This document shows positions 1-64,000 of a stretch of DNA of 64,000 bases, piece by piece. Below the pieces are notes generated by a model. It was not told the origin of the DNA, made no database searches, and was given only the letters and a program-made list of their open reading frames with translations. The position numbers and the translations under genes are program-made. The first letter of the stretch is position 1; each line of letters starts with the position of its first letter. Location of the stretch: the NCBI RefSeq assembly GCF_025979705.1, contig NZ_CP110136.1:1922001-1986000 (forward strand), given 5' to 3'. The stretch is from Hymenobacter sp. YIM 151858-1. Lineage in GTDB: Bacteria; Bacteroidota; Bacteroidia; Cytophagales; Hymenobacteraceae.

Positions 1-451
1 GCTCGTAGCCCGCCGCACGGATAATCCAGGCCAGGATGTTGCGGTAAGCCTTACCGATTGCGCGCGTTTGCGCCATCGAGGCAATGGCAAACTCCTGGTA
101 GAATTTCTTGCCTTGCTCCTTGTTCGAGCAGATAGCGAAGCCGGCGCCCACGGTGTGCTCCGAGCGCATGTCGAAGAGCGTCACCTTGGCCTGGTATTTA
201 ATTTCGGTGTCGGTGCTCATGTTGATGACGTGGTCGACGATGGGCACGATGCCCAGGCGCGAGCCGGCGTACTGCCAGCCTTCCACGTTCACGAACTCTT
301 TGCCTTGCACCGAGGTGGTGAGTTTGTTCTCTTTGATGAAGTTAGCCAAGTCCTTGGCCAACGACAGCGTCTCGTCGGAGCGCGAGATGTCATAGCTTTC
401 CGCTTTCATTTTCCGAACCGGTGCTTTGTTGTCTTTTTGTGCCTCAGTCAT
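1..451 (-). CDS. Putative phage-type single-strand annealing protein (3' end outside window)
   Basis: The reading frame starts at ATG 451 (MTEAQKDNKAP...) and runs off the left edge after about 150 codons without a stop. Visible blocks are VNVEGWQYAGSRLGIVP near residue 55 and SMAQTRAIGKAYRNILAW near residue 130, followed by IIRAAGYE. Blocks of this kind (VEGW, then SMAQTRA-GKA-RN with AGYE) recur in phage and plasmid proteins suspected to be RAD52-like single-strand annealing proteins. That link is from memory of the family, not a search. No phage structural genes are visible beside it. It has its own upstream AT-rich region. The CDS call is firm; the function is tentative. Confidence 0.6.
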   Translation of the reverse strand, partial: MTEAQKDNKAPVRKMKAESYDISRSDETLSLAKDLANFIKENKLTTSVQGKEFVNVEGWQYAGSRLGIVPIVDHVINMSTDTEIKYQAKVTLFDMRSEHTVGAGFAICSNKEQGKKFYQEFAIASMAQTRAIGKAYRNILAWIIRAAGYE

Positions 452-554
452 GGCTTTCTTAATTTCCCTGTAGTACGTCCTGTGTTACGGATTCATAACA
501 GGGCGCCTAGGTGATTAGTGCATTTTTAGGGTTGATTTTTAGCATTTTTTCTTG

Positions 555-591
555 TTGTAAATCAGCCACTTACAAATAATATTCAAAAATA
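555..591 (-). promoter_or_regulatory. Candidate promoter and inverted repeat upstream of the annealing-protein gene
   Basis: On the minus strand TATTTTTG (584-591) matches the Bacteroidota -7 consensus TANNTTTG exactly, but I see no good TTTG element at the expected distance. Just downstream lies the inverted repeat TTGTAA-N9-TTACAA (555-575), which could be an operator. The surrounding 530-600 stretch is far more AT-rich than the rest of the window. Confidence 0.35.
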
Positions 592-735
592 GAATAGCTA
601 AAGCCTTTAGCCAGCTCGCAGCCCCCCATGCCAGGGTTTCGGGGACTGATTTAAGGCAGCCGCTTGGGTAGGTCTTCAACGCATTGAGCGCAAAGAAGTT
701 GAGGCGAGCCTGCCAATTCCCTAGGTGATGAGCAC

Positions 736-765
736 AAAAAAACGCGCCCGGAGTGGGCGCGTTTT
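736..765 (-). terminator. Rho-independent terminator of the LolD-like gene
   Basis: Hairpin CGCGCCC / GGGCGCG with a short loop. Read on the minus strand it is followed by a run of seven T. It lies 35 bases past the stop of the ATPase gene at 801. Confidence 0.75.
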
Positions 766-800: not shown

Positions 801-1454
801 CTATTCCAGAATGAAGCCGTCGCGCATGGTAATTTTGCGGTCGGCCATTTCGGCAAGCTGGTCGTTGTGGGTTACGATAACGAAGGTTTGGCCGAGCTCT
901 TTGCGTAGCAAAAAGAAGATCTGGTGCAGCTCCTGCGCGTTTTGCGAGTCGAGGTTGCCGGAGGGCTCGTCGGCGAAAATGATTTCGGGCGAGTTGATGA
1001 GGGCCCGCGCCACGGCTACGCGCTGCTGCTCGCCGCCCGACATCTCGGAGGGTTTGTGGTCGGCGCGGCGCTCCAGGTTCAGCATGCCCAGCAGCTCGCG
1101 GGCCCGCACGCGGGTTTCCTGCTCGTGGCGGCCGGCCAGGTACGCGGGCAAGCACACGTTTTCGAGCGCCGTGAACTCAGGCAGCAGGTTGTGAAACTGA
1201 AACACGAACCCGATGTGGCGGTTGCGAAACTTGGCCAGCTCGGAGCGCTTCAAGGTGCTTACCGATTCGCCGTCGAATAGCACTTCGCCGGTATCGGGCG
1301 TATCAAGCGTACCTAGGATGTGCAAAAGGGTGCTCTTGCCGGCCCCGGAGGAGCCCACAATCGACACGATTTCCGACTTTTCGATGGTCAGATCGATGCC
1401 CTTGAGCACTTCCAGCGAACCGTAGCGTTTACGAATGTTGACGGCCTGCAGCAA
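801..1454 (-). CDS. lolD: ABC transporter ATP-binding protein, LolD type
   Basis: 217-residue ABC ATPase of the size and type of LolD, which powers extraction of lipoproteins from the inner membrane by LolCE. Walker A is GSSGAGKST (34-42), the signature is SGGEQ (139-143), Walker B is IIFADEP (158-164) with the D-loop SGNLDS, and the switch histidine is H196. The frame after the upstream stop offers no ATG; the likely start is TTG at 1454 ([12 protein letters not shown]). The membrane partner is not next to it, which is common in Bacteroidota. A MacB-type ATPase is the alternative. Probably transcribed alone and ended by the terminator at 736-765. Confidence 0.85.
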
Positions 1455-1469: not shown

Positions 1470-1705
1470 ATGAGAGAAGAAGCGAATAGCGACAAAGCTA
1501 CGCAGAAAGGCCCGATGCCAACAGGCTTGCCGTTGCACCCAACGCGTACCAGCCGGCTTATACGGCAACTCGGCCGTAGTGGCTTAGTATATGCGGCACT
1601 TAATTGCAGGGCCGGCGCCCTGCCCGAGGCCAGGCAATGCCGGCACCTAGGTAATTGCTACCCAAGGGGCAGCGCCACAAAGTGAGAGCAACGGCACCCC
1701 TACTA
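1470..1705. other. Non-coding spacer between lolD and sucC
   Basis: Divergent spacer with one CCTAGG at 1646 and no gene, RNA or strong hairpin that I can recognise. It probably holds the promoter of the lolD-like gene. Confidence 0.5.
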
Positions 1706-3773: not shown

Positions 3774-3777
3774 CCTC

Positions 3778-4643: not shown

Positions 4644-4680
4644 GATGCTCCGACGCCCTAGGTGCCGGAGCATCTTTTTT
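4644..4680 (+). terminator. Terminator with CCTAGG in its loop
   Basis: GATGCTCCG / CGGAGCATC stem with the loop ACGCCCTAGGTGC, then six T. One of four terminators in the window that carry the CCTAGG palindrome. Confidence 0.85.
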
Positions 4681-4727: not shown

Positions 4728-4766
4728 CCTAGGTACCCTGGGCCCGGGCCGGCCCCGACACCTAGG
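4728..4766. repeat. Pair of CCTAGG palindromes in a short spacer
   Basis: Copies at 4728 and 4761 follow the one at 4657, giving three within 110 bases of a very GC-rich spacer with no other feature. Confidence 0.7.
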
Positions 4767-5816: not shown

Positions 5817-6860
5817 ATGAACCACCGCATTTCGCGGCGCGAGGCGCTGCGCAACACCGCGCTGCTTGGCGCCGCCCCTTGGTTGAGCCTGGGCGCCGCT
5901 AACGCGGCTCCTGCAGTGCTTAAAGCGCCTACTCCCCCACTCACCGCCGCCGAAATTGCCAGCATCGAAGCGGCCCTAGGTAAAAAAGGCACTTACGTGG
6001 AGGCACAGGCCACACACTGCACCGCGCTGCCGCGCAACGACCTGCAAGTGCGCATCAAAGGCGAGCCGGTGCCCATTGCGTTTGGTTTCGGGGGTTGGGT
6101 GGCCATCAAGCACACGCTCGACGGCAAATCGGCGATGCTGATGAGCGACACGGTGCTGCTGCAGGAAGAAGTGAACCCGCTGATGTCGGCGGCGCTGGCC
6201 CAGGGGCTCGAGGTGGGGGCCGTGCACAACCACTTCTTCTACGAGGAGCCGCGCATTTTTTACATGCACATCCACGGCATGGGCAGCCCGGCCGAGCTGG
6301 CCGCAAAGTTTGCCGCCGCGCTCAAAAACTCCAAGCTGCTGCCGGCCAACCAGCCGCCCAGTGCCACACCGGCCGCGTCGCAGGCCGGCAACAACGCCAC
6401 GCCCGCCGCCGGCGCAGCCCCCACGGGCAAGGAGCTGTTCGATTTGGCGGCTCTGGACAAAGTGGTGGGCTACCAGGGCGCCGTAAACGGCCCCACCTAC
6501 AAATACACCGTGGGCCGCGCCGACTTGCAGGTGGTGATGATGAACACCGAGATGACCGCCGCCATCGGGCTGAACTCGTGGGCGGCGTTTGCCGGCCGCC
6601 AGGCCGATGCCCACGTGGCGGGCGACATTGCCATGCTGGAGCACGAGGTAAATCCCGTCATCAAAACCCTGCGCGCCCACAACCTGGAGGTGGTGGCCGT
6701 GCACAACCACATGCTCTTCGATCAGCCGCGCATGGTGTTTTTGCACTACTACGGCCGCGGCCCGGCCCCGCAGCTCGCGGCCGGCTTTCGGGCCGCCCTG
6801 GATCAGCTCGGCAAACGCCCACCGCACGATGGACCGGCAAAGCGTGGCATGAAACACTAG
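5817..6860 (+). CDS. Exported protein with two DUF1259 domains (LppY/LpqO type)
   Basis: 347 residues. The N-terminus NHRISRREALRNTALLGAAPWLSLGAANA has a twin-arginine-like signal. Two homologous domains follow, about 45-175 and 205-340, each with an aligned core: QEEVNPLMSAALAQGLEV with AVHNHFFYEEPRIFYMH in the first, and EHEVNPVIKTLRAHNLEV with AVHNHMLFDQPRMVFLHYYG in the second. They are joined by an Ala/Pro-rich linker (TPAASQAGNNATPAAGAAP). DUF1259 has no proven activity; the conserved VHNH and MHIH histidines suggest metal binding, which is inference. Transcribed alone. Confidence 0.85.
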   Translation: MNHRISRREALRNTALLGAAPWLSLGAANAAPAVLKAPTPPLTAAEIASIEAALGKKGTYVEAQATHCTALPRNDLQVRIKGEPVPIAFGFGGWVAIKHTLDGKSAMLMSDTVLLQEEVNPLMSAALAQGLEVGAVHNHFFYEEPRIFYMHIHGMGSPAELAAKFAAALKNSKLLPANQPPSATPAASQAGNNATPAAGAAPTGKELFDLAALDKVVGYQGAVNGPTYKYTVGRADLQVVMMNTEMTAAIGLNSWAAFAGRQADAHVAGDIAMLEHEVNPVIKTLRAHNLEVVAVHNHMLFDQPRMVFLHYYGRGPAPQLAAGFRAALDQLGKRPPHDGPAKRGMKH

Positions 6861-7156
6861 CCTGGCTGCCTGAACTCTGCGAAGGCCGGGCCGTTCCTCA
6901 CTGCCCGGCTTTGTTGTTGAATGCCCGTTTTCACACACTTGCTGGCCAGAAGCAAGGCACGGCTTGCAGGTTGCTTCAGCTTGCCGGGAACCGGGCGCTG
7001 CACGTGCTTGGGTGGCGGCTGGCAATTGCTGACCCTGCCGGCACGGCCCTAGGTTGCGGCATGGCTTGGCAAACCATGCGGCACCAATCCGGTTGAAGAT
7101 GAACGCCGTACGTTCGGCAGTACCTCATTCATCATCCACACCAAACCCCAAACACC

Positions 7157-7871: not shown

Positions 7872-7994
7872 GGGCTTTGGGCCCTAGGTGGTTGGGCGCT
7901 TTGCCCGGCCGAGGAGCTGGTGATGTTCACCTTCGTTGCGTTTTGTCCGTATAAGGGCTGAGTTTTCCCAACCACTCCCATCTTCTGACCAACC

Positions 7995-8766: not shown

Positions 8767-8933
8767 GTGGCCGCTCGTGCCCAGACCTAGGGCGTGCCAG
8801 GCAGCGGCCAAACCAAGCGCCATGTCGGGCGCAGCCAAACCGGTGGCTGCAAGGTTCAGCCCGATGGGTTACCGGGCACGGCGGCTGCCTGGCTCGCCAT
8901 TGCGCTGGCATGCCGCGGCACCTAGGGCGGTTA

Positions 8934-9863: not shown

Positions 9864-9923
9864 ATCGACCTAGGCGCCCCGCGCTACGTACACGCAGGCA
9901 GTACCGAACTTACATCCGCAACC

Positions 9924-10264: not shown

Positions 10265-10362
10265 GGCTTACTTACAAATAGTTACCTAGGGCTATACATC
10301 AACCAATCAAGCCTTTGCTGGTATTTAAATAGCTGGTTGCGAATATTTTTTTGCAACAGCGC

Positions 10363-11409: not shown

Positions 11410-11943
11410 ATGCTGCTGCAACCGTTAACCGAACATCACTGGCCCGCCGTGCAAGCTATTTACGCGGCGGGCATTGCCACCGGCAACGCCACCTTCGAAA
11501 CCCGGGTACCTGAGTGGGCTGCCTGGCATGCCGGCCACCTAGGGCACAGCCGCCTGGTGGCCCTGGGGCCCGGCGGCCAAGTGCTGGGGTGGGCAGCTCT
11601 CAGCCCCGTTTCGGGCCGCTGCGTGTACGGGGGCGTAGCCGAAGTAAGCATCTACATTGCGCCGGATGCCCGGGGCCAGGGCGTGGGGCTGCACCTGCTG
11701 CAAGCGTTGGTGCAGGCGGCGGAGGCCAACGGAATCTGGACGCTGCAGGCCGGCATTTTGCAGGAAAACGCCGCCAGCCTGGCCCTGCACGCCAAGGCGG
11801 GCTTCCGCACCATCGGCTTTCGGGAGCGGATCGGGCAGCTGCATGGGGTGTGGCGCAACGTGGTGCTGCTCGAGCGGCGCAGCTCAACCGTGGGCACCGA
11901 AAGTTCGGCCGCCGAACCGCCGGCGGCTGTCGTTAGCGCATAA
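11410..11943 (+). CDS. arsN1: GNAT acetyltransferase, ArsN1-like (arsinothricin/phosphinothricin type)
   Basis: 177 residues, ATG 11410. Phosphinothricin-type GNAT: IYAAGIATGNATFET near 17-31, acetyl-CoA loop VSIYIAPDARGQGVGLHLLQAL near 78-100, and the typical IWTLQAGILQENAASLALHAKAGFRTIGFRERIGQLHGVWRNVVLLERRS. ArsN1 enzymes acetylate the organoarsenical antibiotic arsinothricin; placement 44 bases after arsI under an ArsR operator favours that over phosphinothricin. A short Ala/Glu tail follows residue 160. One CCTAGG lies inside the gene (11538). Confidence 0.82.
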   Translation: MLLQPLTEHHWPAVQAIYAAGIATGNATFETRVPEWAAWHAGHLGHSRLVALGPGGQVLGWAALSPVSGRCVYGGVAEVSIYIAPDARGQGVGLHLLQALVQAAEANGIWTLQAGILQENAASLALHAKAGFRTIGFRERIGQLHGVWRNVVLLERRSSTVGTESSAAEPPAAVVSA

Positions 11944-12908: not shown

Positions 12909-12971
12909 GCTAATTCAGCGCTGTTAGCTCAACCTTAACACCGGAGTGCCTTTGCGGGTACTCCGGCTTGT

Positions 12972-13849: not shown

Positions 13850-13972
13850 GTAGTGGGTGCTGCCTAGGTGGCGCGCGGGCTGCGGCACCTAGGCAGCCAG
13901 CCGGTGCGGCGCCCCGCAACCCCGGCTTGGGCCAGGCCGTTAGCCCTGCTATTGGCCAATTGCGCACTGCTT

Positions 13973-48986: not shown

Positions 48987-49023
48987 AAAACCGGCCGCTC
49001 CCACCTAGGGAAGCGGCCGGTTT
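48987..49023 (-). terminator. Terminator of acn, CCTAGG in its loop
   Basis: Read on the minus strand: AAACCGGCCGCTTCCC ... GGGAGCGGCCGGTTTTG stem with a CCTAGGT loop and a T tract, 24 bases past the acn stop. Confidence 0.85.
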
Positions 49024-51526: not shown

Positions 51527-52825
51527 ATGACTTTTCGTTTCGTTTCGGGCCGCCTGCTTTTGGGCAGCGCCGCCCTGCTGGCGTCGGTGCTGACGGCCTG
51601 CAACTCCGGTTCCGACAAAACTGCTGCTGATACCGTGGAAAAAACCAGCGCGGCCTCGCCGCTGAAAACCGGCCCCTGGCGCGGTGCTCTGAAAACCCAA
51701 GGTCAGGAAATTCCTTTCCTGTTTGAGGTAGCCGAAGAAGGCAGCAAGCAGGTGGCCTATCTAATTAACAAAGGCATCAACGGCGAGGAGCGCCTGAAGC
51801 TGGATGAAATCAGCACCGCCGGCGACTCAACCACCATTAAGTTGCATGTGTTTGATGCTGCCTTGGTGGTGCGCCCTGCTGGCGAAGGCAAGCTGACGGG
51901 CACTTGGGTGAAGTACGACGCCCCCGAGCCCTACCGTGTACCGTTTGAGGCTACTCAAAGCAATGAACTGTTTGGTGCCGCAAAGGGCCAAGCGCAGGAT
52001 TTTGCGGGCACTTGGGCTACTACTTTCAAAGACGACGAAGGCAGCACCACACCTGCGGTGGGCATCTTCAAGCAAAACGGCTCGGAGGTTACAGGCACGT
52101 TTCTGACCACCACGGGCGACTACCGCTACTTGGCGGGCCAAGCCGATGGCAACACCGTGCGCATGACCACCTTCGATGGCAACCACGGCTGGCTCTTTAC
52201 GGCACAAAAGCAAGCCGACGGAACACTGAAAGGCGACTTCTACAACGGCAAATCGGGCCACGAAACCTGGACAGCTAAGCTCGACCCGAACGCCAAGCTG
52301 CCCGACGCCAACGCCCTTACCGGCATGAAGCCCGGTCAGAAGCGCCTCGATTTCAAATTCCCGAACATCTACGAAGGGGGCAGCATCTCCCCCACCGACC
52401 CCAAGTACAAGGGCAAAGTAGTGGTGGTGCAGGTGCTGGGCTCGTGGTGCCCCAACTGCATGGACGAGACCAACTTCCTGGCGCCGTGGTACGAGAAGAA
52501 CAAGCAACGCGGCGTGGAAATCATCGGCCTAGGTTTTGAGCGCAGCCCCGACCAGAAGGCAGCCGCTCAAAAGCTGCTGAAAATGAAAGAGCGCCTGAAC
52601 GTGGGCTACGATTTGGCCGTGGCCGGCATGGCCAACAAAGACTCGGCTAGCAAAGCCCTGCCCCAGCTCTCGAAAGTACTGGCCTTCCCCACCACCATCT
52701 TCCTGGATAAGAAAGGCGAGGTGCGCAAAATTCATACGGGCTTTAGCGGCCCCGGCACCGGCGAGTACTACCAGAAGCAGACCGAGGAGTTTAACAAAAC
52801 CATCGACCAGTTGCTGGCTGAGTAA
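51527..52825 (+). CDS. TlpA-like thiol-disulfide lipoprotein
   Basis: 432 residues with a lipoprotein signal (MTFRFVSGRLLLGSAALLASVLTAC, lipidated at C25). A DUF4369-like beta domain is absent; instead about 40-280 is a beta-rich region with a repeated GTW...DDEGSTTPAVGIFKQNGSEVTGTFLTTTGDYRYLAG pattern. The C-terminal thioredoxin-like domain has the active site CPNC (308-311, GSWCPNC). Envelope-facing thiol reductase; the partner is unknown. Divergent from acn. The palindromic element at 52855-53073 follows. Confidence 0.88.
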   Translation: MTFRFVSGRLLLGSAALLASVLTACNSGSDKTAADTVEKTSAASPLKTGPWRGALKTQGQEIPFLFEVAEEGSKQVAYLINKGINGEERLKLDEISTAGDSTTIKLHVFDAALVVRPAGEGKLTGTWVKYDAPEPYRVPFEATQSNELFGAAKGQAQDFAGTWATTFKDDEGSTTPAVGIFKQNGSEVTGTFLTTTGDYRYLAGQADGNTVRMTTFDGNHGWLFTAQKQADGTLKGDFYNGKSGHETWTAKLDPNAKLPDANALTGMKPGQKRLDFKFPNIYEGGSISPTDPKYKGKVVVVQVLGSWCPNCMDETNFLAPWYEKNKQRGVEIIGLGFERSPDQKAAAQKLLKMKERLNVGYDLAVAGMANKDSASKALPQLSKVLAFPTTIFLDKKGEVRKIHTGFSGPGTGEYYQKQTEEFNKTIDQLLAE

Positions 52826-53073: not shown

Positions 53074-53082
53074 AGCGGCCAC

Positions 53083-53643
53083 CTAGGTGCGGATGCGCTC
53101 CAGCAGCACAATGGGCTCCTCGTGGTAAGTGGTGCGGGCAAACTCCCGGAAACCGAACTTACCGGCCAGGCGCAAAGAGGCTTCGTTGTCGGGGTCGATG
53201 ATGCAGGTAATGCGGTTGGTGGGGAAGTTTGTATCGGCCCAGGCCAGCGCTGCCTCCAGGGCTTGGCTGGCGTAGCCGCGGCGGTGCACGCGCGGCGACA
53301 GTACCCACCCTGCCTCGGGCGTGCCTTTGATGGAGGGGTTCAGGTCGCGCTGATAATCGAAAAAGCCTACCCCTCCGATGTAGCGGCCGGTGGCTTTTTC
53401 CTCGATGGCCCACGAGCCGTATCCCAGCATGGCCCAATGCCCAAGTTGGCTCAGGATGCGGCGCCAAACCTCTTCCTCGGTATTCGGCTTGTTGCCTAGG
53501 TAGCGGAAGAAATCCGGGTCGGTGTGCATGTCGGCCGACTCGTGCAAATCATCGAGCTTGGGGCCGCGCAAAATGAGGTCGGCGGTTTCGAGCCGCGGCA
53601 CCAGATCTTGCGGGGCGCTTAATAGGCTTAAGGGCAGTGTCAT
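53083..53643 (-). CDS. RimJ/RimL-type GNAT acetyltransferase
   Basis: 186 residues, ATG 53643 (MTLPLSLLSAPQDLVPRLETADLILRGP). GNAT fold of the ribosomal-protein-acetyltransferase type: SWAIEEKATGRYIGGVGFFDYQRDL, acetyl-CoA loop near LSPRVHRRGYASQALEAALAWA (about 120-145) and NEASLRLAGKFGFREFART. Substrate unknown. The TAG stop is in the CCTAGG at 53082. Confidence 0.85.
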   Translation of the reverse strand: MTLPLSLLSAPQDLVPRLETADLILRGPKLDDLHESADMHTDPDFFRYLGNKPNTEEEVWRRILSQLGHWAMLGYGSWAIEEKATGRYIGGVGFFDYQRDLNPSIKGTPEAGWVLSPRVHRRGYASQALEAALAWADTNFPTNRITCIIDPDNEASLRLAGKFGFREFARTTYHEEPIVLLERIRT

Positions 53644-53749
53644 GGGGCAATGATAGCACGCCCGCGCACAATGCGCCACGCAACCACATCAATATGTGAA
53701 CGGGGCGGTGCCGGCACGGGCTGCTCTTCGCTGCTGGCCTGCCCAGCAC

Positions 53750-55135
53750 CTAGGCGCGCAGCCGGAACTGCAGCGTGATTTCGGCGCGGGGGCGCAGCGT
53801 GATGAGCGGGCGCAGACCCGGCGCGGGCTGGGCCACCCATTCCACCTCGAAGCGGCGCAGGGTTTCGAGCAGTACCAGCTGCATTTCGGTGAGGGCAAAC
53901 TGGTTGCCGATGCACAGGCGCGGCCCGCCGCCAAACGGCAGGTAGGCGTAGGCGGGCTGCTCGCGCAGCTGCTCCTTGCCGAAGCGCTCGGGCCGGAAAG
54001 CTTCGGGCTCGGGCCACAACCTGGGCAAGTGGTGCACGCCGTAGATGTAAGCCGAAATAAGCGTGCCTTTGGGCAGCTTCAGGCCGTTGTACTCGTCGTC
54101 TTCGAGGGCTTGGCGGTCTACGATCCAGGCGGGCGGGTACAGCCGCATGGTTTCCTGAATTACCTGCAGCGCGTACGGCAGCTGGGGCAAATCCTGAAAA
54201 GCAGGGCGCCGCTCACCTAGGGCTGCTCCCATTTCGGCGCGCAGCTTGGCCACTACCTCCGGGTGCTGAGCCAGCAAGTACCACAGCCACGACAGCGCGT
54301 TGGCGGAGGTTTCGTGGCCGGCCACGAGCAGGATAATGGCTTCGTCGAGCACCTGCGCCTCCGTCATGGGCTCGTGGGTGTCTTCGTAGCGCGCATCGAG
54401 CAGCATTTGCAGCAGGTCGTCTTTGCCGGCGCCTCCCTCCTGCTGCCGCTGCCGAATGTACTTGAGCACCAGTTGGCGCATTTGCGCAGCCAGCTGATCG
54501 TGGTAGCGGAATTGGCCCTTCACAGCCAGCCACGGCTTTAGGTAAGGCTGCCTGAGGGTGCGGGTGTAAAAAGCCTGAATATCGGTGAGCAGGTGAGCCA
54601 GTTGCTGCAGCTCGGCCTCGCTCATGCTGGTGCTGAACACCGAGCGCGCAATAATGCGAAAAGCCGTAGTCGTCATCAGCTCGTGCACCGCCACTGGGGT
54701 AGCGCCGCCTTGCTGCCGGGCCTGCGCCACCACGGGCTCCAGGCATTCGTCAATTACCTGCAGCATGGTTTCGGTAAGAGCCGCAATGCGCTGCCGATGA
54801 AAGCCCGGCTGAATAAGCCGGCGCTGCTGCAGCCAGTAGCTACCCTCGGAGGTAAGCAACCCATGCCCTAGGTAGCGCGCCACCCCGTGCGACATCTCCG
54901 ACTTGGGATAGTTACGGTGGTTTTTCTGCAGAATGTGCTGAATCAGGCCCGGGTCGCGGGTGAGCAAGGTGGGCCGGATGCCGCCCATGTGCAGCCCGAT
55001 GGTTTCGCCTAGCTCATCGAGGTACTGCGTGATGATGGGAATGGGGTTCTCGGCCAGCGCCAACGAGTTGCGAAAAGCCCGCAAGCGCGGCACTTGGGGC
55101 AAAGCAGGCGAAGCCGCCGAAGCAGAAGCATTCAT
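53750..55135 (-). CDS. Cytochrome P450
   Basis: 461 residues, ATG 55135 (MNASASAASPALPQVPRLR). P450 hallmarks: I-helix AGHETSANALSW, K-helix ExxR in QETMRLYPPAW, and the heme motif FGGGPRLCIGNQ with heme-ligand C408. No membrane anchor, so soluble. Class by length and motif resembles the bacterial CYP that hydroxylates fatty acids or terpenes; the substrate is unknown and no redox partner is adjacent. The TAG stop lies in the CCTAGG at 53749. Has two more CCTAGG inside (54216, 54867). Confidence 0.94.
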   Translation of the reverse strand: MNASASAASPALPQVPRLRAFRNSLALAENPIPIITQYLDELGETIGLHMGGIRPTLLTRDPGLIQHILQKNHRNYPKSEMSHGVARYLGHGLLTSEGSYWLQQRRLIQPGFHRQRIAALTETMLQVIDECLEPVVAQARQQGGATPVAVHELMTTTAFRIIARSVFSTSMSEAELQQLAHLLTDIQAFYTRTLRQPYLKPWLAVKGQFRYHDQLAAQMRQLVLKYIRQRQQEGGAGKDDLLQMLLDARYEDTHEPMTEAQVLDEAIILLVAGHETSANALSWLWYLLAQHPEVVAKLRAEMGAALGERRPAFQDLPQLPYALQVIQETMRLYPPAWIVDRQALEDDEYNGLKLPKGTLISAYIYGVHHLPRLWPEPEAFRPERFGKEQLREQPAYAYLPFGGGPRLCIGNQFALTEMQLVLLETLRRFEVEWVAQPAPGLRPLITLRPRAEITLQFRLRA

Positions 55136-55183: not shown

Positions 55184-55304
55184 CCTAGGGCAGCCGCCAG
55201 CCAACGGTGGCAGCGGCTTTTGCCGGCGCGGGCACCTAGGCCAGTTACCTTTTTCGGCGTTCGTGCGTACCACTAACCGGGGCTAACCCGCGTTAGCACC
55301 TAGG
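55184..55304. repeat. Cluster of three CCTAGG palindromes
   Basis: Copies at 55184, 55235 and 55299 in the 215-base divergent spacer between the P450 and zinc-ribbon genes; two of them read GCACCTAGGCC. Confidence 0.7.
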
Positions 55305-56856: not shown

Positions 56857-57723
56857 GTGCCGGCCACCACCACTGCCACCGTTACCAGCTGCGCCAACTG
56901 CGGCACCGCGCTGCAAGGTGCTTACTGCCACAGCTGTGGCGAAAAGCGCCTCGGCTACCACGACTACGCCCTAGGTCATTTTCTGGAGCACGCCGTGGAC
57001 ACCACCACGCACTTCGATTTTAAGGTACTGAAAGGCATGTGGAGTTTGTTGGCCCGGCCCGGTCGCATGACGGCCGACATCCTGCGGGGCCGCCGCGTGC
57101 CCTGGCCCAAGCCCTTGCAGCTGTTCCTGATTGCCAACCTGCTGTTTGTGTTTGTGGCGCACCGCATCGGGCTCAAAATATTCAACACCCCGCTCAACTA
57201 CCACCTCGACAACTGGTACGGCCGCTGGGCCCTGGAGCAGATCAACAACCTGACAATCAGACGCAAAACCAGCGCAGCGCAGCTAACCGAGCAGTTCAAC
57301 CACTTGGCCGATGTGCTGTCGAAGTCGCTCATCTTCGTCTTTATTCCGTTGGTGGCCTTGGCCCTCGCGGCCCTGCTATGGCGCCGGCGCCGCTACTACC
57401 TCGAGCACGTGGTAACGGCCACGCACTACATGAGCTTACTGCTGTTGCTGCAATTGCTGATGGTGGGCCCGGTGCTATTGTTGCTGCAGGCGGCGCCCTA
57501 TGTGCTGGGGCGCCCCCTCACCTACTCCGAGTCCGATCAGACCATCGGCGTGCTGATGCTGCTGGCCCTCACGGGCTGGGGCTACGGCCTGCTGCGCCGC
57601 ACCTACGGCGGCGGGCGGTGGCTGCCGCTGCTGCAGGCTTTGGGCCTAAGCCTGGTATTTGCCTGGCTGCTGATAAGCGTGTATCGTCCGTTTTTGTTCT
57701 TGGTTACGTACCTTCTGCTGTAA
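56857..57723 (+). CDS. DUF3667 membrane protein with zinc ribbon
   Basis: 288 residues from a GTG start at 56857 (no ATG nearby). Zinc-ribbon cysteines C12, C15, C24 and C27 (CANCGTALQGAYCHSCGEK), then the DUF3667 pattern HFLEHAVDTTTHFDFKVLKGMWSLLARPGRMTADILRGRRVPWPKPLQLFLIANLLF. Four to five membrane spans. Function not established. The next gene begins 41 bases later. Confidence 0.83.
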   Translation: MPATTTATVTSCANCGTALQGAYCHSCGEKRLGYHDYALGHFLEHAVDTTTHFDFKVLKGMWSLLARPGRMTADILRGRRVPWPKPLQLFLIANLLFVFVAHRIGLKIFNTPLNYHLDNWYGRWALEQINNLTIRRKTSAAQLTEQFNHLADVLSKSLIFVFIPLVALALAALLWRRRRYYLEHVVTATHYMSLLLLLQLLMVGPVLLLLQAAPYVLGRPLTYSESDQTIGVLMLLALTGWGYGLLRRTYGGGRWLPLLQALGLSLVFAWLLISVYRPFLFLVTYLLL

Positions 57724-57764: not shown

Positions 57765-58643
57765 ATGCCTGCTGCCGCAACCCTCACCCGCCTCGATTTT
57801 GTGCTCAAGCCCGCGCACCACGCGCGGCCATTTGCCGCCGACGCCCGTTTTGTGCCCGATGGCAAGCCCAAGCCGGTGGTGGTGTTTGTGCACGGGTTCA
57901 AGGGGTTCAAGGATTGGGGCCACTTCAACGTAATGGCCGATTACTTTGCCCTGCGCGGCTTTGTGTTCGTGAAGCTCGATCTGTCGCACAACGGCGTGGT
58001 AATTGGCGGCACCGGCGACCTGGAAGACCTCGACGCCTTCGGCCGCAACAACTTCAGCATCGAGCTCGATGATATCGGCTGCCTGCTCGATGCCCTGCAC
58101 CAGCCCGGCGCCACCCCCGTGCCGCCCGCCGAAATGGACCTAGGCCGCCTGTACCTCGCGGGCCATAGCCGCGGCGGCGGCTTGGTAATGCTGAAGGGCG
58201 CTGAGGACAAACGCGTGCGGGCCGTGGCGGCGTGGGCGCCCATTACCAACGTAAACCCCGGCTGGCCCGAGCCCATGATGCAGCAGTGGCAGCAGGCGGG
58301 CGTCATCCACGTCGAAAACGCGCGCACCAAGCAGCAGCTGCCGCTGTACTTCCAGATTGTGGAAGACTTCCATACCAACCGCCTGCGCCTCGATATCCCG
58401 CACAACGTGCGCCGCAAGCTGCGCCAGCCGCTGCTCGTGATTCATGGCGACCAGGACGAGACCTTGCCCGTACAAAAAGCGCACGAGCTGCCCCGCTGGA
58501 AACCCGACACCGAGCTGGTAATATTGCCGGGCGCCGGGCATATGTTTGGCGGCGCACACCCCTGGGATGCCGAGCACCTGCCCGAGCCCGCCCACGAGGT
58601 AGCCGAGCGCACCATTGCCTTCTTTCAGCGCCAAGCCTCCTAG
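57765..58643 (+). CDS. Cytosolic alpha/beta hydrolase
   Basis: 292 residues, ATG 57765 (MPAAATLTRLDFVLKP). Hydrolase core: PVVVFVHGFKGFKDWGHFN (oxyanion region), nucleophile GHSRGGG with S135, acid in HGDQDETLPV and a catalytic-type histidine in GAGHMFGGAHPW. Serine hydrolase of the dienelactone/peptidase-like type; substrate unknown. Followed after 3 bases by folK, so it is probably co-transcribed with folate synthesis. TAG stop within CCTAGG at 58639. Confidence 0.87.
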   Translation: MPAAATLTRLDFVLKPAHHARPFAADARFVPDGKPKPVVVFVHGFKGFKDWGHFNVMADYFALRGFVFVKLDLSHNGVVIGGTGDLEDLDAFGRNNFSIELDDIGCLLDALHQPGATPVPPAEMDLGRLYLAGHSRGGGLVMLKGAEDKRVRAVAAWAPITNVNPGWPEPMMQQWQQAGVIHVENARTKQQLPLYFQIVEDFHTNRLRLDIPHNVRRKLRQPLLVIHGDQDETLPVQKAHELPRWKPDTELVILPGAGHMFGGAHPWDAEHLPEPAHEVAERTIAFFQRQAS

Positions 58644-58646
58644 GCC

Positions 58647-59147
58647 ATGAACCACAAGCACAACGCCTACCTTTTGCTCGGCTCGAACCTGGGCGACCGG
58701 GTAGCTACCCTGCACCGCGCCCTCGTGGCGCTGGCCGCCAAAGCGGGCAAAATCGTGTCGGTTTCGGCCGTGTACGAAACCGCCGCCTGGGGCAACGAAG
58801 GCCAGCCCGCTTTCCTCAACCAGGCCATTTTGCTGAATACCGACCTAGGCCCCGAGCCGCTGCTCGACGTGTGCCAGCAAGTAGAACAAGAGTTCGGCCG
58901 CGAGCGGCTGGAGCCCTGGGGCCCGCGCACCCTCGACGTCGACATCCTCTTCTTCGACGACGTAGTGCTGCACACCGAGCGCCTCACCATACCGCACCCC
59001 CGCCTGCCCGAGCGCATGTTTGCCCTGGCGCCGCTGGCCGACATTGCCACCGCCTACGTGCACCCCGAGCTGCACAAAAGCGTAGCCGATTTGCTGGCCG
59101 ATTGCCCCGATAAACTGCCCGTGGAGCAGTGGATGGGCGACCTTTAA
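58647..59147 (+). CDS. folK: 2-amino-4-hydroxy-6-hydroxymethyldihydropteridine pyrophosphokinase
   Basis: 166-residue HPPK of the folate pathway, which activates the pterin with ATP before DHPS. Motifs: LLLGSNLGDR (9-18), VYETAAWGNEGQPAFLNQAILL, EQEFGRERLEPWGPRTLDVDILFF (81-103, with D97 and D99 as the metal ligands), then HPRLPERMFALAPL. Normal length. Its TAA stop is followed immediately by the CCTAGG that supplies the stop of the convergent gene. Confidence 0.96.
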   Translation: MNHKHNAYLLLGSNLGDRVATLHRALVALAAKAGKIVSVSAVYETAAWGNEGQPAFLNQAILLNTDLGPEPLLDVCQQVEQEFGRERLEPWGPRTLDVDILFFDDVVLHTERLTIPHPRLPERMFALAPLADIATAYVHPELHKSVADLLADCPDKLPVEQWMGDL

Positions 59148-59148
59148 C

Positions 59149-60342
59149 CTAGGGTGCCTGCTTGCCTGGGTGCTGGGGTACCACCAAGGGCTGCACCGGC
59201 CGGTTGTGCGAAAAGCGCGCTACCCGCACGGCACGCACCGCGGGGTACAGCAGCCAAACAGCCAGCACCCACACCACCCAGCGCCGCTTCGCGGCAGCTT
59301 CGGAAACCAGCGCGGCCAGCACCACCACAAACGGGCCGTACACCACGGCGCAGTACCGCTCCACGTCGTACACGTTGCCGCCGCTGCGGCTTACTACCGT
59401 GGTGCCCATGTGGATGAGCAGGTATACCACCACCGCCACGCTCAGCAGCCGTATCAGGCGGTGGCTTTGCTGCCAGCTTAGGTACAGCATGCCGGCCAGC
59501 AGCACGAGCAGCAGCCCCGCAAACACCCAGTGCTTGGGCCACTCGGCTTGTTGCACCGGCAACAGCCAGCGCACCAGCACGTAGCCGTAGTCGGCCAGGG
59601 CTTCGCGCAGGCCCTGCCAGCCTTTGTTGCGGTAAAACTCGGGCCGCGGCGCTACCATGCGGGCATAAATCAGCCAGGCCAAAGCCATTAATCCGCCGAC
59701 GGCCCCGTGCAGCAGCAGGGCGCCGCGTTGGCGGCGCCACGCATCGGGGTAAGCCAGCAATACGCCCAGCCCCACGCCCACCAGCAGAAACAGCCCCGAG
59801 GTGCGCTGCAACGGCAACAGCACCCCCAACGCGGTAGCCGCCAGCCACCACCTGGGGCCGCCGCGCTGCAGGTAGTGGTACAGCGCCACCGCGTACAGGC
59901 CAAACAGCAACCCAAACACCGGCTCCGACCACACAAATTTGGCCGTGGCCAGCCACGGCGTGGCGCAGCCCAGCGCCAGCACCGCGCCGGCGGCTATCGG
60001 CCGGTTGGGCACTACCCGCCAGGCCAGCCAGCCCCAGGCACCCAGGCAACCCAGCAAACTGATGCCGTTCAGCACGCCCACCCATGCGCCGGGGTTGCCC
60101 ATGCCGGCCGAAAGCAGCACCGGGTACAGCGGCCCCCACCAGCGGTAAGGCGTGCCATCGGGGTTCAGCAAGTGGCCGTGCTCGGCAAAGCTGCGAGCCG
60201 CCGCGAGGTAGTAATACGAATCGGCCGTAACGCCGGGCCCCGGCCCGTAGGCGTACGCAAACAAGCCCAACAACCAGCCCGCTGCCAGCAAGCTGATGAT
60301 GAGCCTGCTGGCACTCCCTCCTGTCAGCCGCGGCTGCTCCAT
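59149..60342 (-). CDS. Polytopic membrane protein, GT39/ArnT-like glycosyltransferase
   Basis: 397 residues, ATG 60342. About ten hydrophobic spans, starting at 14-34. The first loop TADSYYYLAAARSFAEHGHLLNPDGTPYRWWGPLYPVLLS is typical of GT-C glycosyltransferases (an acidic residue in the first extracytoplasmic loop). Likely uses a lipid-linked sugar on the outer face of the inner membrane. No sugar-transfer partner nearby. The TAG stop is in CCTAGG at 59148. Confidence 0.78.
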   Translation of the reverse strand: MEQPRLTGGSASRLIISLLAAGWLLGLFAYAYGPGPGVTADSYYYLAAARSFAEHGHLLNPDGTPYRWWGPLYPVLLSAGMGNPGAWVGVLNGISLLGCLGAWGWLAWRVVPNRPIAAGAVLALGCATPWLATAKFVWSEPVFGLLFGLYAVALYHYLQRGGPRWWLAATALGVLLPLQRTSGLFLLVGVGLGVLLAYPDAWRRQRGALLLHGAVGGLMALAWLIYARMVAPRPEFYRNKGWQGLREALADYGYVLVRWLLPVQQAEWPKHWVFAGLLLVLLAGMLYLSWQQSHRLIRLLSVAVVVYLLIHMGTTVVSRSGGNVYDVERYCAVVYGPFVVVLAALVSEAAAKRRWVVWVLAVWLLYPAVRAVRVARFSHNRPVQPLVVPQHPGKQAP

Positions 60343-60353
60343 GCACCTAGGGC

Positions 60354-60402: not shown

Positions 60403-61287
60403 TTACTGAGCCGAGGCGGTAGCAGCCTGGGGCGAAATCTTCTTCACCAAGCCTTGCAGCACCTTGCCGGGGCCGCACTCCACAAACTCGGTGGCGCCGT
60501 CCAGGGTCATGCGCTGCACCGACTGCGTCCAGCGTACCGGCGCGGTCAGTTGGCTGATCAGGTTCTGGCGGATTTCGTCGGGGTTGGTGTGCGGGGCAGC
60601 GTCCACGTTCTGGTACACCGGGCAGCGGCCCGCCGTAAAGGTGGTACGGCCAATGGCCTCGGCCAGCGCCGCCTCCGCCGATTGCATCAGCGGCGAGTGG
60701 AAAGCCCCGCCCACCGGCAGCGGCAGGGCGCGCTTGGCGCCGGCAGCCTTCAGGGCTTCGCAGGCCTGCTCGATGCCCAGCTTCGAGCCGCTGATTACCA
60801 GCTGGCCGGGGCAGTTGTAGTTGGCGGCCACTACCACGTTGCCGGCCTGCGTAATTTCCTGGCAGATGCGCTCCACGGCGGCATCGTCGAGGCCCAGGAT
60901 GGCGGCCATGGTGCCGGGCTGCTCCTCGCAGGCGGCTTGCATGGCCTGGGCGCGGCGGGCCACCAGTTGCAGCGCGTCTTCAAACTGCAGTACCCCCGCC
61001 GCCACCAGCGCCGAAAACTCACCTAGGGAGTGGCCGGCTACCATGTCGGGCTGCAGGCCGGGCGTGGCCACAAACTGCGCCACCGAGTGCACGAAGATGG
61101 CAGGCTGGGTTACGTCGGTGCGGCGCAGGTCGTCGTCGGAACCCGTGAACATGATATCGGTGAGCGAAAAGCCCAGGATTTCGTTGGCTTGCTGCATCAG
61201 GCGCTTGGCCTCGGCGTGTTGCTCGAAAAGCTCGCGGCCCATGCCCGTAAACTGGCTGCCCTGGCCGGGGAATACTACTGCTTTCAT
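60403..61287 (-). CDS. fabD: Malonyl-CoA:ACP transacylase
   Basis: 294 residues. ATG 61287 (MKAVVFPGQGSQFTGMGREL) is chosen over the upstream TTG 61290. Transfers malonyl from CoA to ACP for fatty-acid synthesis. Nucleophile S87 in GHSLGEFSALVAAG; catalytic histidine in VGGAFHSPLMQSAE; the GQGSQ oxyanion motif is at 8-12. Length is normal. No other fab gene is adjacent. One CCTAGG (61022) is inside. Confidence 0.96.
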   Translation of the reverse strand: MKAVVFPGQGSQFTGMGRELFEQHAEAKRLMQQANEILGFSLTDIMFTGSDDDLRRTDVTQPAIFVHSVAQFVATPGLQPDMVAGHSLGEFSALVAAGVLQFEDALQLVARRAQAMQAACEEQPGTMAAILGLDDAAVERICQEITQAGNVVVAANYNCPGQLVISGSKLGIEQACEALKAAGAKRALPLPVGGAFHSPLMQSAEAALAEAIGRTTFTAGRCPVYQNVDAAPHTNPDEIRQNLISQLTAPVRWTQSVQRMTLDGATEFVECGPGKVLQGLVKKISPQAATASAQ

Positions 61288-61493
61288 CAAGAGGGAAAAT
61301 CGATGGAAGAAACGGTGGCGGGCACGCGGCCCGGTTTAGCAGCGGCTAAACAGGCCGCAAGGTGCGCAATCAGGGCCTTATGCGCAAAACCGATGGCCCG
61401 GCCCTAGGTGCCCGGAGCCGTTTGGGCCGGCCTGCCCCGAGGTGCCTTGGCTGCCTACACCCAGCCAGCCCGTTGGCACCTAGGGCCGGGGCA

Positions 61494-61530
61494 CAAAAAA
61501 ACGGGCTGCCGGTGGTCGGCAGCCCGTTTC
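61494..61530 (-). terminator. Terminator of the T9SS type-B protein gene
   Basis: ACGGGCTGCCG / CGGCAGCCCGT stem with a short loop; a run of T follows on the minus strand. Confidence 0.85.
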
Positions 61531-61550
61531 GAAACACTTGCTGAGGGCTT

Positions 61551-64000
61551 TTACCGCATCAGCTCTACCCAGCCTTTAAAAATTCGGGTGGTTCGCTTGA
61601 GGTCGGCAAACTCCACTTCGATCAGGTAGTAGTAAGTGCCGGCCGATGCACGGGCGCCCGTGTCGCCGCCTTCGTTGCCGCGGCCCCCGCCGCCGTTCCA
61701 CAGCGTCAGGTCGCTGGAGGCGGTGCCCTCGTACACCTTCGCGCCCCAGCGGTTGAATATCTGCACCTTGGCGCGGGTTACCGGGCTGGCGAAGATGGGC
61801 TTGAAGGTGTCGTTGCGGCCGTCGCCGTTGGGCGTGAAGATGTTCGGCAGCACAAAAATCTGGCAGTTATCCTGGCACTCGATGTTGCTCTGCACGCTCG
61901 AAGTGCCGGCCGAGTCGACGGCAATTACCGCGTAGCAGCCAGCCGCCGAGGCCAGGTTGCGGTGCACGAAGCTTTGCACCGGCGTGCGGCCGATTTCCGT
62001 GAACTCGCCCTCCTCGGTGGGCCGGAACAGCACCCGGTAGAAGGCAATGTTGCGGCCGCAATCGGCGGGGGTATTGCCCAGCGTCCAGCGCAGGTAGTTG
62101 TTGTAGCGGGCCTGCCCGCCGCGCGGCAGCGCAGCGGCTACGCTGTCGCAATTAATGGGGCGCAGCGTGAGCACCGGCGGGCACGGAATAGAGGCCAGCG
62201 TAACGCAGCGCACCTGGCTCAGGTTGACGAGGTTGCTGGGCAAATTGGGCGCGCCGTAGGTACCCACGGTTTCCACGTAGTAGCAGTACGTCTGGTTTTT
62301 GCGCAGCGGCTGGGCCGCGGTGCCCCGGTCGGTAAAGGTGCCGCTGGTGCGCGTCACCACGGTATCCGCAATCAGCGTGAAAGCGGTAGCACCGGGGTTG
62401 CGGCGGTAAATGCGCGTGCGCCGCTGGCTGTTATCCCAGGGCACGTTGTACGTGAAATTAAGCTTGATGGAGTTGCCCACCGCATTGGCCACGCCGTTGA
62501 GGCGCACGCTGCTGGCCGGACCGGCATTCTCCACAATGGCCGCCGAGTTGGGCTGCGTCGACACGTTGCTGAAGAACTCGAGCCGGTAGGTGTAGGCCTT
62601 GGTTTCGGTGTCGAGGTTCGTGTCGACGTGAACCGTATCGTCGAGGTTGCTGATGGTCCGGACGAGCGTGTAGCCGCCCGTGGAGGGGTTCTGGCCTTCG
62701 CCGCGGAACAAGCGGTAGCCCACCGGCGGGTTAAAACCCGACGAGCTGACCGGTTTGGTCCACTTCACGGTGATCTGCCCGGTGGCCGCGTCGGTGCGGT
62801 CGACGGTAACGTTGGTGAACAGCGCCGCCCGACCCTCCAGCGTTACGCACACTTCCCGCGAGGCAATGCTGGCCCCACCGGCCGGCCGCGGAAACTCGGC
62901 GTAGATGCGGTAGCAGTAGGTTTTGCCCCGATCAAGCCCCCGGCCGCCGTTGTCGTCGGTGAAAGAAACCACGTTGCTGGCTACCGAGCCAATTTGGGTG
63001 TAGCCGGCGCTGGCCGGAATACCGGTTTCGCAGGGCCCGGGCCGGAATGAGGACGTGTTTTCCTTCCGGAAAATAAGAATGCGCGACGCGTTGGAACAGA
63101 TGTACCGGTCCCAGTTGAGCACGATGGAGCCACCCTGCGGCCGGCCCACCAGGTTGGCCGGCGGCGGCCCTACCACCGTAATGCGCCACGGCCGCTCGTC
63201 AATCAGCGGCGAGGTAGCTCCGGGCGGCTGGTCTTGCACCTTAAACACTACCTGCGTGGGGTCGGAGGCTACGTCGGAGCAGCTCGTCGTCCACTGAAAC
63301 ACGCCGGCCACGTAGCCGGGCCGGCTGATGGTTTGCCGGAACGTAGCCGGCGGGAAAATCCCTCCGAACGCCTGCAACTGCATGGTATGGTTATCGGGGT
63401 CGGTGCCGGTGATGGTGCGCGTGATGGTGGCTCCTGCTATTACACAGGTGTCGCGTGGTACAAACACCGTGGGGCGCTGGTTATTCGAGGCCACTACCGT
63501 AATCTGCATATCGCGGATAACCTCCCCGATAATGCGTCGGCCGCCGTTGGCATCGCGCCGCCACTCCGTTACAATAAATGCCACGTTGTAGTCGCCGATA
63601 CCGCGGAGGCTGGGCGCATTCCACACCAGCTGCCCGGTTCGGGGGTCAATCACCAGGATGGCCGGCTCCCCTACCTGCGCCGCGGGCGGGCCGGCATACG
63701 GCACCTGCACGCCCCCCGGCGATACGCTCTGCTCATTGGGGTAAGCATAGCCCGGCACGGGCGTGGGCTGGGGCCGGTTGCGGTTGGTGGTGGCCGTGGT
63801 AATGCCCACTACGCCGCGCGGCTCGCGCTGGCACACCACCAGTCGGTACGACAGCGAGTCGCCATCGGGGTCGGAGGCGGCGGGGTTGTGCAGAAACACC
63901 TGCCCGGCGGTAGCCCGATCAACGGCCGGCGCGTTGAGTACCGGCGAGTTGTTGGCCCCCACAATCGGGTCGATGGTGATGCGCGTGTGGATGTAGAAGT
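61551..64000 (-). CDS. T9SS type-B giant secreted protein (5' end outside window)
   Basis: At least 816 residues, open to the right edge, where the frame reads FYIHTRITIDPIVGANNSP. Contains DPDGDSLSYRLVVCQ, a PKD-like region and several fibronectin-III/Ig-like modules. The C-terminal 90 residues are the gliding-motility-associated (type B) sorting domain: FVLPNIFTPNGDGRNDTFKP, AKVQIFNRWGAKVYEG, AGTYYYLIEVEF and the final IFKGWVELMR. Such proteins are released or form surface adhesins through T9SS. No CCTAGG in its 2.4 kb. Confidence 0.93.
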   Translation of the reverse strand, partial: FYIHTRITIDPIVGANNSPVLNAPAVDRATAGQVFLHNPAASDPDGDSLSYRLVVCQREPRGVVGITTATTNRNRPQPTPVPGYAYPNEQSVSPGGVQVPYAGPPAAQVGEPAILVIDPRTGQLVWNAPSLRGIGDYNVAFIVTEWRRDANGGRRIIGEVIRDMQITVVASNNQRPTVFVPRDTCVIAGATITRTITGTDPDNHTMQLQAFGGIFPPATFRQTISRPGYVAGVFQWTTSCSDVASDPTQVVFKVQDQPPGATSPLIDERPWRITVVGPPPANLVGRPQGGSIVLNWDRYICSNASRILIFRKENTSSFRPGPCETGIPASAGYTQIGSVASNVVSFTDDNGGRGLDRGKTYCYRIYAEFPRPAGGASIASREVCVTLEGRAALFTNVTVDRTDAATGQITVKWTKPVSSSGFNPPVGYRLFRGEGQNPSTGGYTLVRTISNLDDTVHVDTNLDTETKAYTYRLEFFSNVSTQPNSAAIVENAGPASSVRLNGVANAVGNSIKLNFTYNVPWDNSQRRTRIYRRNPGATAFTLIADTVVTRTSGTFTDRGTAAQPLRKNQTYCYYVETVGTYGAPNLPSNLVNLSQVRCVTLASIPCPPVLTLRPINCDSVAAALPRGGQARYNNYLRWTLGNTPADCGRNIAFYRVLFRPTEEGEFTEIGRTPVQSFVHRNLASAAGCYAVIAVDSAGTSSVQSNIECQDNCQIFVLPNIFTPNGDGRNDTFKPIFASPVTRAKVQIFNRWGAKVYEGTASSDLTLWNGGGGRGNEGGDTGARASAGTYYYLIEVEFADLKRTTRIFKGWVELMR

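Follow-up and report, generated by a model that had tools for sequence, protein, structure and literature searches.

DNA uptake sequences (DUS) of Neisseria are exactly conserved in 71% of cases at about 85% identity, sit in permissive places and lie about 1,150 nucleotides apart (PMC2397512). Published counts are 1,888-1,935 for four meningococcal genomes of 2.2-2.3 Mb and 5,918 for K. oralis, the dialects of the Neisseriaceae share a CTG core, and ComP is the pilin that binds DUS. To our knowledge, uptake-sequence dialects are known only from the Neisseriaceae and the Pasteurellaceae, both of which have type IV pili. Other iterated words include HIP1 (highly iterated palindrome), which has 8 bases and is tied to orphan methyltransferases, and Chi, an asymmetric octamer that is frequent in the chromosome. 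Here we analyzed a stretch of 64,000 bases (62.7% GC) of Hymenobacter sp. YIM 151858-1, called the window (G000:C1:1922001-1986000), in which the asymmetric word ACCTAGG[G/C] is repeated about once per kb and may be an uptake-sequence-like self-word. Genomes are given as rows G0xx and sampled stretches as Lxxx; G000, the source of the window, has 4.62 Mb in three contigs.

The window contains 86 copies of CCTAGG, against 21.5 expected from base composition (order 0) and 10.8 (order 2) or 13.1-13.2 (order 3) expected from Markov models. A first-pass annotation had estimated about 85 copies against 20 by eye, and all ten coordinates it named are correct, although 47233 is really 47232. The third-order count that it suggested also gives a strong excess in a chromosome sample of 400 kb from 20 places, with 467 copies against 84.0 expected (68.7 at order 2) and about 1.2 sites per kb. 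The remaining NCTAGN palindromes are depleted in the window (GCTAGC 6, ACTAGT 1 and TCTAGA 0 against 21.5, 7.6 and 7.6 expected), so the alternative that all CTAG words are in equal excess does not hold here. Genome-wide, ACCTAGG is present in 5,096 copies in G000, which lies near the published DUS counts and in the range of an uptake-type word. The observation of an iterated, chromosome-wide word with a HIP1-like density is thus confirmed, while its interpretation in the first-pass annotation is partly supported.

The top 8-mer was ACCTAGGG, found 325 times in 444 kb where 7.5 copies were expected (43-fold), and its single substitutions at the first seven positions reached 0 to 2.3 times expectation. 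The stretch L034, which is low in sites, was excluded from this excess, from the spacing and position densities, from the density classes of the window and from the near-miss counts. An extended 12-mer occurs in 177 + 190 = 367 copies in G000, against 0 + 0 for the reversed control. Nine exact copies lie in the window, as GCCCTAGGTGCC at 4655, 15930, 24403, 29524, 32300 and 61401 and on the other strand as GGCACCTAGGGC at 8917, 20113 and 61475. The site at 15136, which had been listed among the extended copies, differs at two bases. The proposal of a selected word of 10-12 bases holds in that the word is longer than 6 bases, but its main unit is shorter and asymmetric.

This is seen in the bases flanking CCTAGG at the 553 sites of the window and sample, where the pairs, with self-complementary pairs halved in counting, are A..G 325, A..C 148, A..A 39, A..T 8 and all others 33. 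ACCTAGG is read on at least one strand in 520 of the 553 sites and is mostly followed by G or C, whereas T is avoided and the symmetric ACCTAGGT is rare (8/553). An A on one side with a base other than T on the other side is found in 512/553 sites, which is not the pattern of a HIP. Outside ACCTAGG[G/C] there are weak preferences for G or C at -2, C at -1 and C at +8, and GGCACCTAGGGC is the fullest form of the word. ACCTAGG[G/C], not a palindrome, is the unit of the dialect of this lineage (D1, see below), and because the word is asymmetric, the palindrome CCTAGG is a by-product in D1. Selection for a palindrome, as first supposed, is rejected by the flank-pair counts, and some relatives have words that are fully non-palindromic.

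Non-carriers align across many sites with substitutions, for example CCTGGG, CCCAGG or CCGAGG, and some alignments are gapped. These alignments indicate that the sites arose by substitution in place and disfavor an insertion element. At coding sites in frame 2, Leu was already present in the non-carriers G001 (16/20), G002 (17/19), G003 (15/16), G006 (7/8) and G007 (8/8), with a Leu-Gly pair at 9, 12, 10, 5 and 7 of these sites and a CTA codon at 2, 0, 0, 0 and 0, respectively. Since Leu is present but CTA is rare, the word entered coding DNA mostly at positions that already encoded Leu.

Once present, the word is conserved. In the comparison of orthologous sites that the first-pass annotation had proposed, CCTAGG was exact between carriers (88% identity) at 48/62 sites in G004 and 45/61 in G005, against 52% for all 6-mers, and at 0/32 and 0/30 sites in the non-carriers G001 and G002. 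The third base of CTA was kept inside the word in 23/29 and 25/29 cases, against 5/28 and 10/25 elsewhere (G004 and G005). Identity in the coding flanks of conserved sites was 0.876/0.866, compared with 0.905/0.913 for other conserved 6-mers and 0.891/0.889 for the background, and in intergenic flanks it was 0.758/0.791, compared with 0.873/0.872 and 0.797/0.815, the sites in this comparison having been chosen for being conserved. The flanks are below background identity, as is seen for DUS in permissive places, so the word is held and not its surroundings, a conservation beyond the flanks that is looked for in uptake sequences.

Genes were taken from a home-made codon-usage caller, without curated annotation, which marks only 75% of the sample as coding, and intergenic counts are therefore approximate; G172, where nearly nothing was called, was left out of the coding split. 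Coding sites number 332/553 (0.95 per kb) and intergenic sites 221/553 (1.93 per kb), with intergenic densities of 3.43 per kb between convergent, 2.29 between co-directional and 1.79 between divergent genes. Sites number 3.9-5.0 per kb within 75 bases downstream of stops and 1.3-2.0 per kb within 75 bases upstream of starts, and CCTAGG contains 30 of the 363 called stop codons. In coding DNA, the placement xxC CTA GGx (frame 2) accounts for 278/332 sites. Orientation is balanced between the strands (258 vs 254) and, for frame-2 coding sites, relative to the gene (136 anti vs 124 same), and no replichore bias was found (99/101 and 159/153, hand-summed with the origin guessed at about 3.2 Mb from GC skew). 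Spacing, another check proposed at first pass, is near random, very close pairs being slightly under-represented (gaps of 6-30 bases, 11 vs 15.6; 30-60, 16 vs 18.9; 200-400, 105 vs 92.0). Neighboring pairs within 60 bases number 27 against about 34 expected, and 13 of the 27 are inverted as CCTAGGT..ACCTAGG. Of five places picked by eye for hairpin folding, 24603, 29103, 49004 and the pair 13863/13888 are stable (z -4.0 to -6.7), and 34199 has no stable hairpin (z 0.1).

The word is scarce on the plasmid contigs and in parts of an island region, as is looked for in recently acquired mobile DNA if the word is an uptake sequence. The contigs C2 (158,200 bases) and C3 (100,856 bases) each encode a TraG-type conjugation P-loop ATPase (L179, L182) and are likely conjugative plasmids, and five 20-kb stretches of them held 2, 4, 1, 0 and 1 sites (8 in 100 kb). 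On C1, seven 20-kb stretches from 1.06 to 1.20 Mb held 4, 1, 1, 4, 21, 2 and 17 sites, in an island region with tyrosine recombinases at L186:14199-15485 and L188:274-1590. An outer-membrane efflux protein and an efflux adaptor are encoded at L186:16505-19470, within the mostly word-poor region of about 1.06-1.18 Mb (L184-L188, L034). In Neisseriaceae, integrated conjugative elements have been located by their atypical DUS distribution (PMC7371117), and the word could likewise help map mobile or foreign DNA in these genomes.

Across the family, we surveyed 200 Hymenobacteraceae genomes, an even sample of a larger group, counting the symmetric ACCTAGGT twice. Only eight are rich in ACCTAGG (G000 5,096; G004 5,341; G005 5,823; G079 8,746; G137 6,326; G178 6,251; G180 6,341; G184 6,321), and the other 192 have 23-666 copies. 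None of the 80 named loci, which span up to 12.3 kb, has more than four CCTAGG. In its own genus (eight genomes including G000), the 12-mer is present in 367 copies in G000, 344 in G004 and 204 in G005, and is absent from the other five. The eight carriers occupy three places on a 30-genome marker tree. This pattern takes three changes, and well-supported branches leave no choice for two of these; the carrier state may also have been gained once and lost twice. The flanks of the word partly differ among the three carrier groups, and different words occur in some relatives (CCCTAGGG, TGGCCTAG and CCTACCCCC).

Altogether, 17 of 44 genomes from which stretches were sampled carry one of six words. 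D1 (G000, G004, G005) is ACCTAGG[GC], D2 (G137, G184) is ACCTAGG[GC] with many CCCTAGG[GC], and D3 (G058) is CCCTAGGG, with 31 copies in 40 kb against 0.7 expected. D4 (G079, G178, G180) is A[CG]CTAG[CG]T, with 43 copies of ACCTAGGT and 34 of ACCTAGCT in 60 kb of G079. D5 (G171, G172, G163 and, weakly, G162) is A[CG]TGGCCTA[GC], with CTAGGCCA found 63 times in 60 kb of G171 (3.4 expected), and D6 (G052, G173, G185 and, in a looser form, G123) is CCTACCCCC. CCTA is present in five of the six words, in D4 only in its C-form; D3 and D4 are palindromic and D5 and D6 are not. On the ComEC protein tree, in which the G003 row is in the wrong frame with a very long branch and that of G009 is long, so that only dialect groupings were relied on, D1, D2, D4 and D5 each form one clade, D3 is a single row and D6 occupies two places with two changes. 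The words thus share a core and follow the phylogeny, as dialects would. These are the words that surfaced in samples of 20-100 kb, and further words may exist in genomes called non-carriers.

Over the 200 genomes, CCTACCCCC is most frequent in G052 (3,123), G089 (3,140), G173 (3,409), G185 (3,530) and G197 (2,419), followed by 1,149-1,259 copies in G123, G153 and G168, 294-711 in six more (G091, G103, G113, G119, G145 and G198) and at most 147 in the rest. The intermediate counts (294-1,259) point to a word that is less strict or in decay. In G123, ACTACCCC and GCTACCCC are in excess as well. Other enriched 8-mers were GTAGCGAA (G125, L252), GGGGGGCA (G186, L245-L246), GAGACGCA (G101, L254) and AGCATCTC (G058, L229-L230; G151, L235-L236; G097, L257), which may be further words or small repeats.

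We give an even chance to ACCTAGG[G/C] being this lineage's dialect of an uptake-sequence-like self-word spread by molecular drive. We infer that a DNA receptor, apparently not on a type IV pilus, would prefer the word during DNA uptake, that homologous recombination of the preferentially imported fragments would spread and maintain it wherever the sequence tolerates it, and that a change of receptor specificity would rewrite the genome into another dialect. The asymmetry of the word, its density of about 1 per kb, its indifference to direction, its low-cost placement, its conservation beyond its flanks, its rarity on plasmids and the related words of some relatives resemble the published signature of Neisserial uptake sequences. 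DUS likewise number in the thousands, about one per kb, form tree-following dialects with a short shared core (PMC3630211), are strongly conserved in permissive places (PMC2397512) and are atypical in integrated conjugative elements (PMC7371117). CCTA is shared by five of the six words here, as CTG is by the Neisseriaceae dialects. The uptake signal sequences (USS) of Pasteurellaceae are also an iterated genome-wide uptake word, explained by molecular drive (PMC1939737). Drive by biased uptake would explain a dialect change of thousands of sites more easily than selection on a fixed chromosomal function.

Word and phylum are other than those of DUS, the word has about 8-10 bases instead of 10-12, some dialects are palindromic, many relatives have no word that we found, and the uptake bias itself is inferred. 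The USS of Pasteurellaceae has a word and flanks unrelated to ACCTAGG[G/C] and needs type IV pilus machinery. Here, the PilB/PilT/GspE-type ATPase (PF00437) was over the cut-off in 0/26 genomes, with one sub-threshold match in G009 and pilin families not searched, so the only uptake-sequence route known to us, of the ComP type, is missing. The inner-membrane channel ComEC (PF03772) is present in 30/30 genomes, in carriers and non-carriers alike.

Several further results weigh against an uptake sequence. Unlike in Neisseria, no clear word was found in the other 27 of the 44 sampled genomes, some of which have weaker candidates, and among the matches listed we found no natural transformation of Hymenobacter in the literature. 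By conservation, CCTAGG ranks 24th of 827 and 33rd of 774 6-mers in a raw ranking that has no codon-usage control. Near-misses of ACCTAGGG (positions 2-7) occur at 1.08 times expectation in G000, 0.92 in G004 and 0.88 in G005 (0.67-0.75 in non-carriers), and near-misses of ACCTAGGC do not differ between carriers and non-carriers. For comparison, meningococci have 809-818 DUS-1 per 1,888-1,935 DUS, although for K. oralis the gain from one mismatch is only 21%. Core and accessory DNA within the window could not be separated by site density (1.17, 1.53 and 1.52 per kb), and the DNA unmatched in relatives is as site-rich as the rest (1.52 per kb); the scarcity on plasmids fits any slow process. 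The missing machinery, the near-misses that are fewer than in meningococci, the many relatives without a found word and the possibility of a modification ratchet are why we go no further than an even chance.

A HIP1-type origin, in which a methyltransferase marks the word and methylation-directed repair retains mutations towards it (Elhai's model), is unlikely in our judgment. HIP1 has a comparable density and is sporadically replaced by other words in relatives (PMC4390886), and the palindromes D3 and D4 and the CTAG level of the D2 and D4 carriers (385-519 per 100 kb) point the same way. The likeness drawn at first pass therefore stands for density, but not as a plain analogue, because the main word is asymmetric, D5 and D6 are not palindromes and none of three methyltransferase families (PF01555 and PF00145 in 16 genomes, PF02086 in 26) is common to the carriers; the search did not extend to the type I (PF02384) or type IIG enzymes. 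Four of the eight carriers (G004, G178, G180 and G184) have no match to these three families, for which a palindromic methyltransferase as the common factor is rejected. CTAG is avoided in several non-carriers (per 100 kb: G001 67, G002 25, G003 55, G006 80, G167 42 and G121 55, against 204-270 expected at order 1) and is high in other genomes without a clear word (G149 342, G189 310, G161 255 and G151 250). Ranging from 25 to 342 per 100 kb without a clear word, it says little about modification. A site selected about every kb for a chromosome-organizing or repair protein (a nucleoid protein, a strand-discrimination nickase or a nuclease self-mark) would fit the strong conservation, the roughly random spacing and the preference for the chromosome over the plasmid contigs, but 192 of the 200 genomes are low and, with at least six words in the family, every switch would call for coordinated changes by the thousand, which makes it quite unlikely. 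The lack of replichore bias speaks against a Chi-like polar site, and relatives of this lineage differ from the Chi case in having different words.

The stops inside CCTAGG, the density just past stops, the inverted pairs and the four well-folding hairpins could also point to an element at transcript ends that acts in RNA, for instance a terminator. This is very improbable, as 332/553 sites are coding and gene orientation is balanced; the lack of strand bias is what disfavors it. We likewise give little credence to a context-dependent mutation bias without a dedicated system, one of the first-pass candidates. CTAG frequency does vary by lineage, but a single 8-mer at 43-fold beside neighbors at 0 to 2.3 times expectation fits such a bias poorly, and the word is conserved above 6-mers in general and above its flanks.

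If ACCTAGG[G/C] is an uptake word, Hymenobacteraceae may have pilus-free, sequence-specific uptake with a receptor whose specificity changed several times, giving at least six dialects mostly around CCTA. This would be a third independent origin of uptake sequences, a tentative proposal to which we give a little under an even chance. Among the matches listed, we found no description in the literature of iterated words of this kind in Hymenobacter or Bacteroidota, in line with the first-pass annotation, which knew of none for the lineage. A family with at least six such words, which change from one relative to another and were not seen in some of them, forms a natural series on the gain, upkeep and rewriting of thousands of copies, and allows one to ask whether uptake bias or modification is at work and which gene sets the specificity. 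The word could also be a hint for making these strains transformable.

Table 1. Positions of CCTAGG in the 64,000-base window; the strand is the one that reads ACCTAGG.
Feature	Coordinates	Strand
CCTAGG site	506..511	-
CCTAGG site	720..725	-
CCTAGG site	1312..1317	+
CCTAGG site, symmetric ACCTAGGT (rare)	1646..1651	.
CCTAGG site directly past called stop codon	2995..3000	-
CCTAGG site within 12-mer	4657..4662	-
CCTAGG site	4728..4733	-
CCTAGG site	4761..4766	+
CCTAGG site	5975..5980	-
CCTAGG site	7048..7053	-
CCTAGG site	7883..7888	-
CCTAGG site	8786..8791	+
CCTAGG site within 12-mer	8921..8926	+
CCTAGG site	9869..9874	+
CCTAGG site	10285..10290	+
CCTAGG site	11538..11543	+
CCTAGG site containing TAG stop of called gene	12904..12909	.
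CCTAGG site, hairpin, inverted pair with 13888	13863..13868	-
CCTAGG site, hairpin, inverted pair with 13863	13888..13893	+
CCTAGG site containing TAG stop of called gene	15136..15141	-
CCTAGG site	15613..15618	+
CCTAGG site within 12-mer	15932..15937	-
CCTAGG site	17690..17695	+
CCTAGG site	18844..18849	.
CCTAGG site	19757..19762	+
CCTAGG site within 12-mer	20117..20122	+
CCTAGG site	20665..20670	-
CCTAGG site	21510..21515	+
CCTAGG site	24063..24068	+
CCTAGG site within 12-mer	24405..24410	-
CCTAGG site within terminator-like hairpin	24603..24608	+
CCTAGG site	24652..24657	+
CCTAGG site	25372..25377	-
CCTAGG site	26079..26084	-
CCTAGG site	27806..27811	+
CCTAGG site	27917..27922	-
CCTAGG site	28235..28240	-
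CCTAGG site within terminator-like hairpin	29103..29108	+
CCTAGG site	29185..29190	+
CCTAGG site within 12-mer	29526..29531	-
CCTAGG site	32153..32158	+
CCTAGG site within 12-mer	32302..32307	-
CCTAGG site	32714..32719	-
CCTAGG site	33416..33421	+
CCTAGG site	34199..34204	+
CCTAGG site	34253..34258	+
CCTAGG site	36162..36167	+
CCTAGG site	36255..36260	+
CCTAGG site	36693..36698	-
CCTAGG site	38040..38045	-
CCTAGG site	38514..38519	.
CCTAGG site	38740..38745	-
CCTAGG site	38955..38960	-
CCTAGG site	39201..39206	+
CCTAGG site	40152..40157	+
CCTAGG site	40461..40466	+
CCTAGG site	41648..41653	-
CCTAGG site	42341..42346	+
CCTAGG site	42951..42956	-
CCTAGG site	43387..43392	-
CCTAGG site containing TAG stop of called gene	43721..43726	+
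CCTAGG site	44779..44784	-
CCTAGG site	45305..45310	+
CCTAGG site directly past called stop codon	46951..46956	-
CCTAGG site	47232..47237	-
CCTAGG site	47531..47536	+
CCTAGG site	48342..48347	+
CCTAGG site within hairpin	49004..49009	+
CCTAGG site	52528..52533	-
CCTAGG site, symmetric ACCTAGGT (rare), containing TAG stop of called gene	53082..53087	.
CCTAGG site	53495..53500	-
CCTAGG site containing TAG stop of called gene	53749..53754	+
CCTAGG site	54216..54221	+
CCTAGG site	54867..54872	-
CCTAGG site	55184..55189	+
CCTAGG site	55235..55240	+
CCTAGG site	55299..55304	+
CCTAGG site	56970..56975	-
CCTAGG site	58139..58144	+
CCTAGG site containing TAG stop of called gene	58639..58644	.
CCTAGG site	58844..58849	+
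CCTAGG site containing TAG stop of called gene	59148..59153	+
CCTAGG site	60346..60351	+
CCTAGG site	61022..61027	+
CCTAGG site within 12-mer	61403..61408	-
CCTAGG site within 12-mer	61479..61484	+

Nine proteins of the window were scanned, and they include one TonB receptor and one protein with a type IX secretion tail. The closest named relatives of a 765-aa protein (49047-51344) are from Hymenobacter (H. sp. YC55, 89%; H. daecheongensis, 87%), and one internal stop codon was reported in its matches in L201 (G004, TAG), L206 (G003, TAG) and L208 (G016, TAA). An intergenic element of about 200 bases at approximately 52846-53084 represents a dispersed, partly palindromic repeat family; among the matches listed, to query 7327-7592, G000 and G002-G007 have numerous incomplete copies of it in both orientations. 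CGATCG is strongly avoided, with 2 copies against 33.0 expected in the window and 14 against 198.4 in the 400 kb, and each of 43 relatives has between 0 and 5 copies in the stretches sampled from it.

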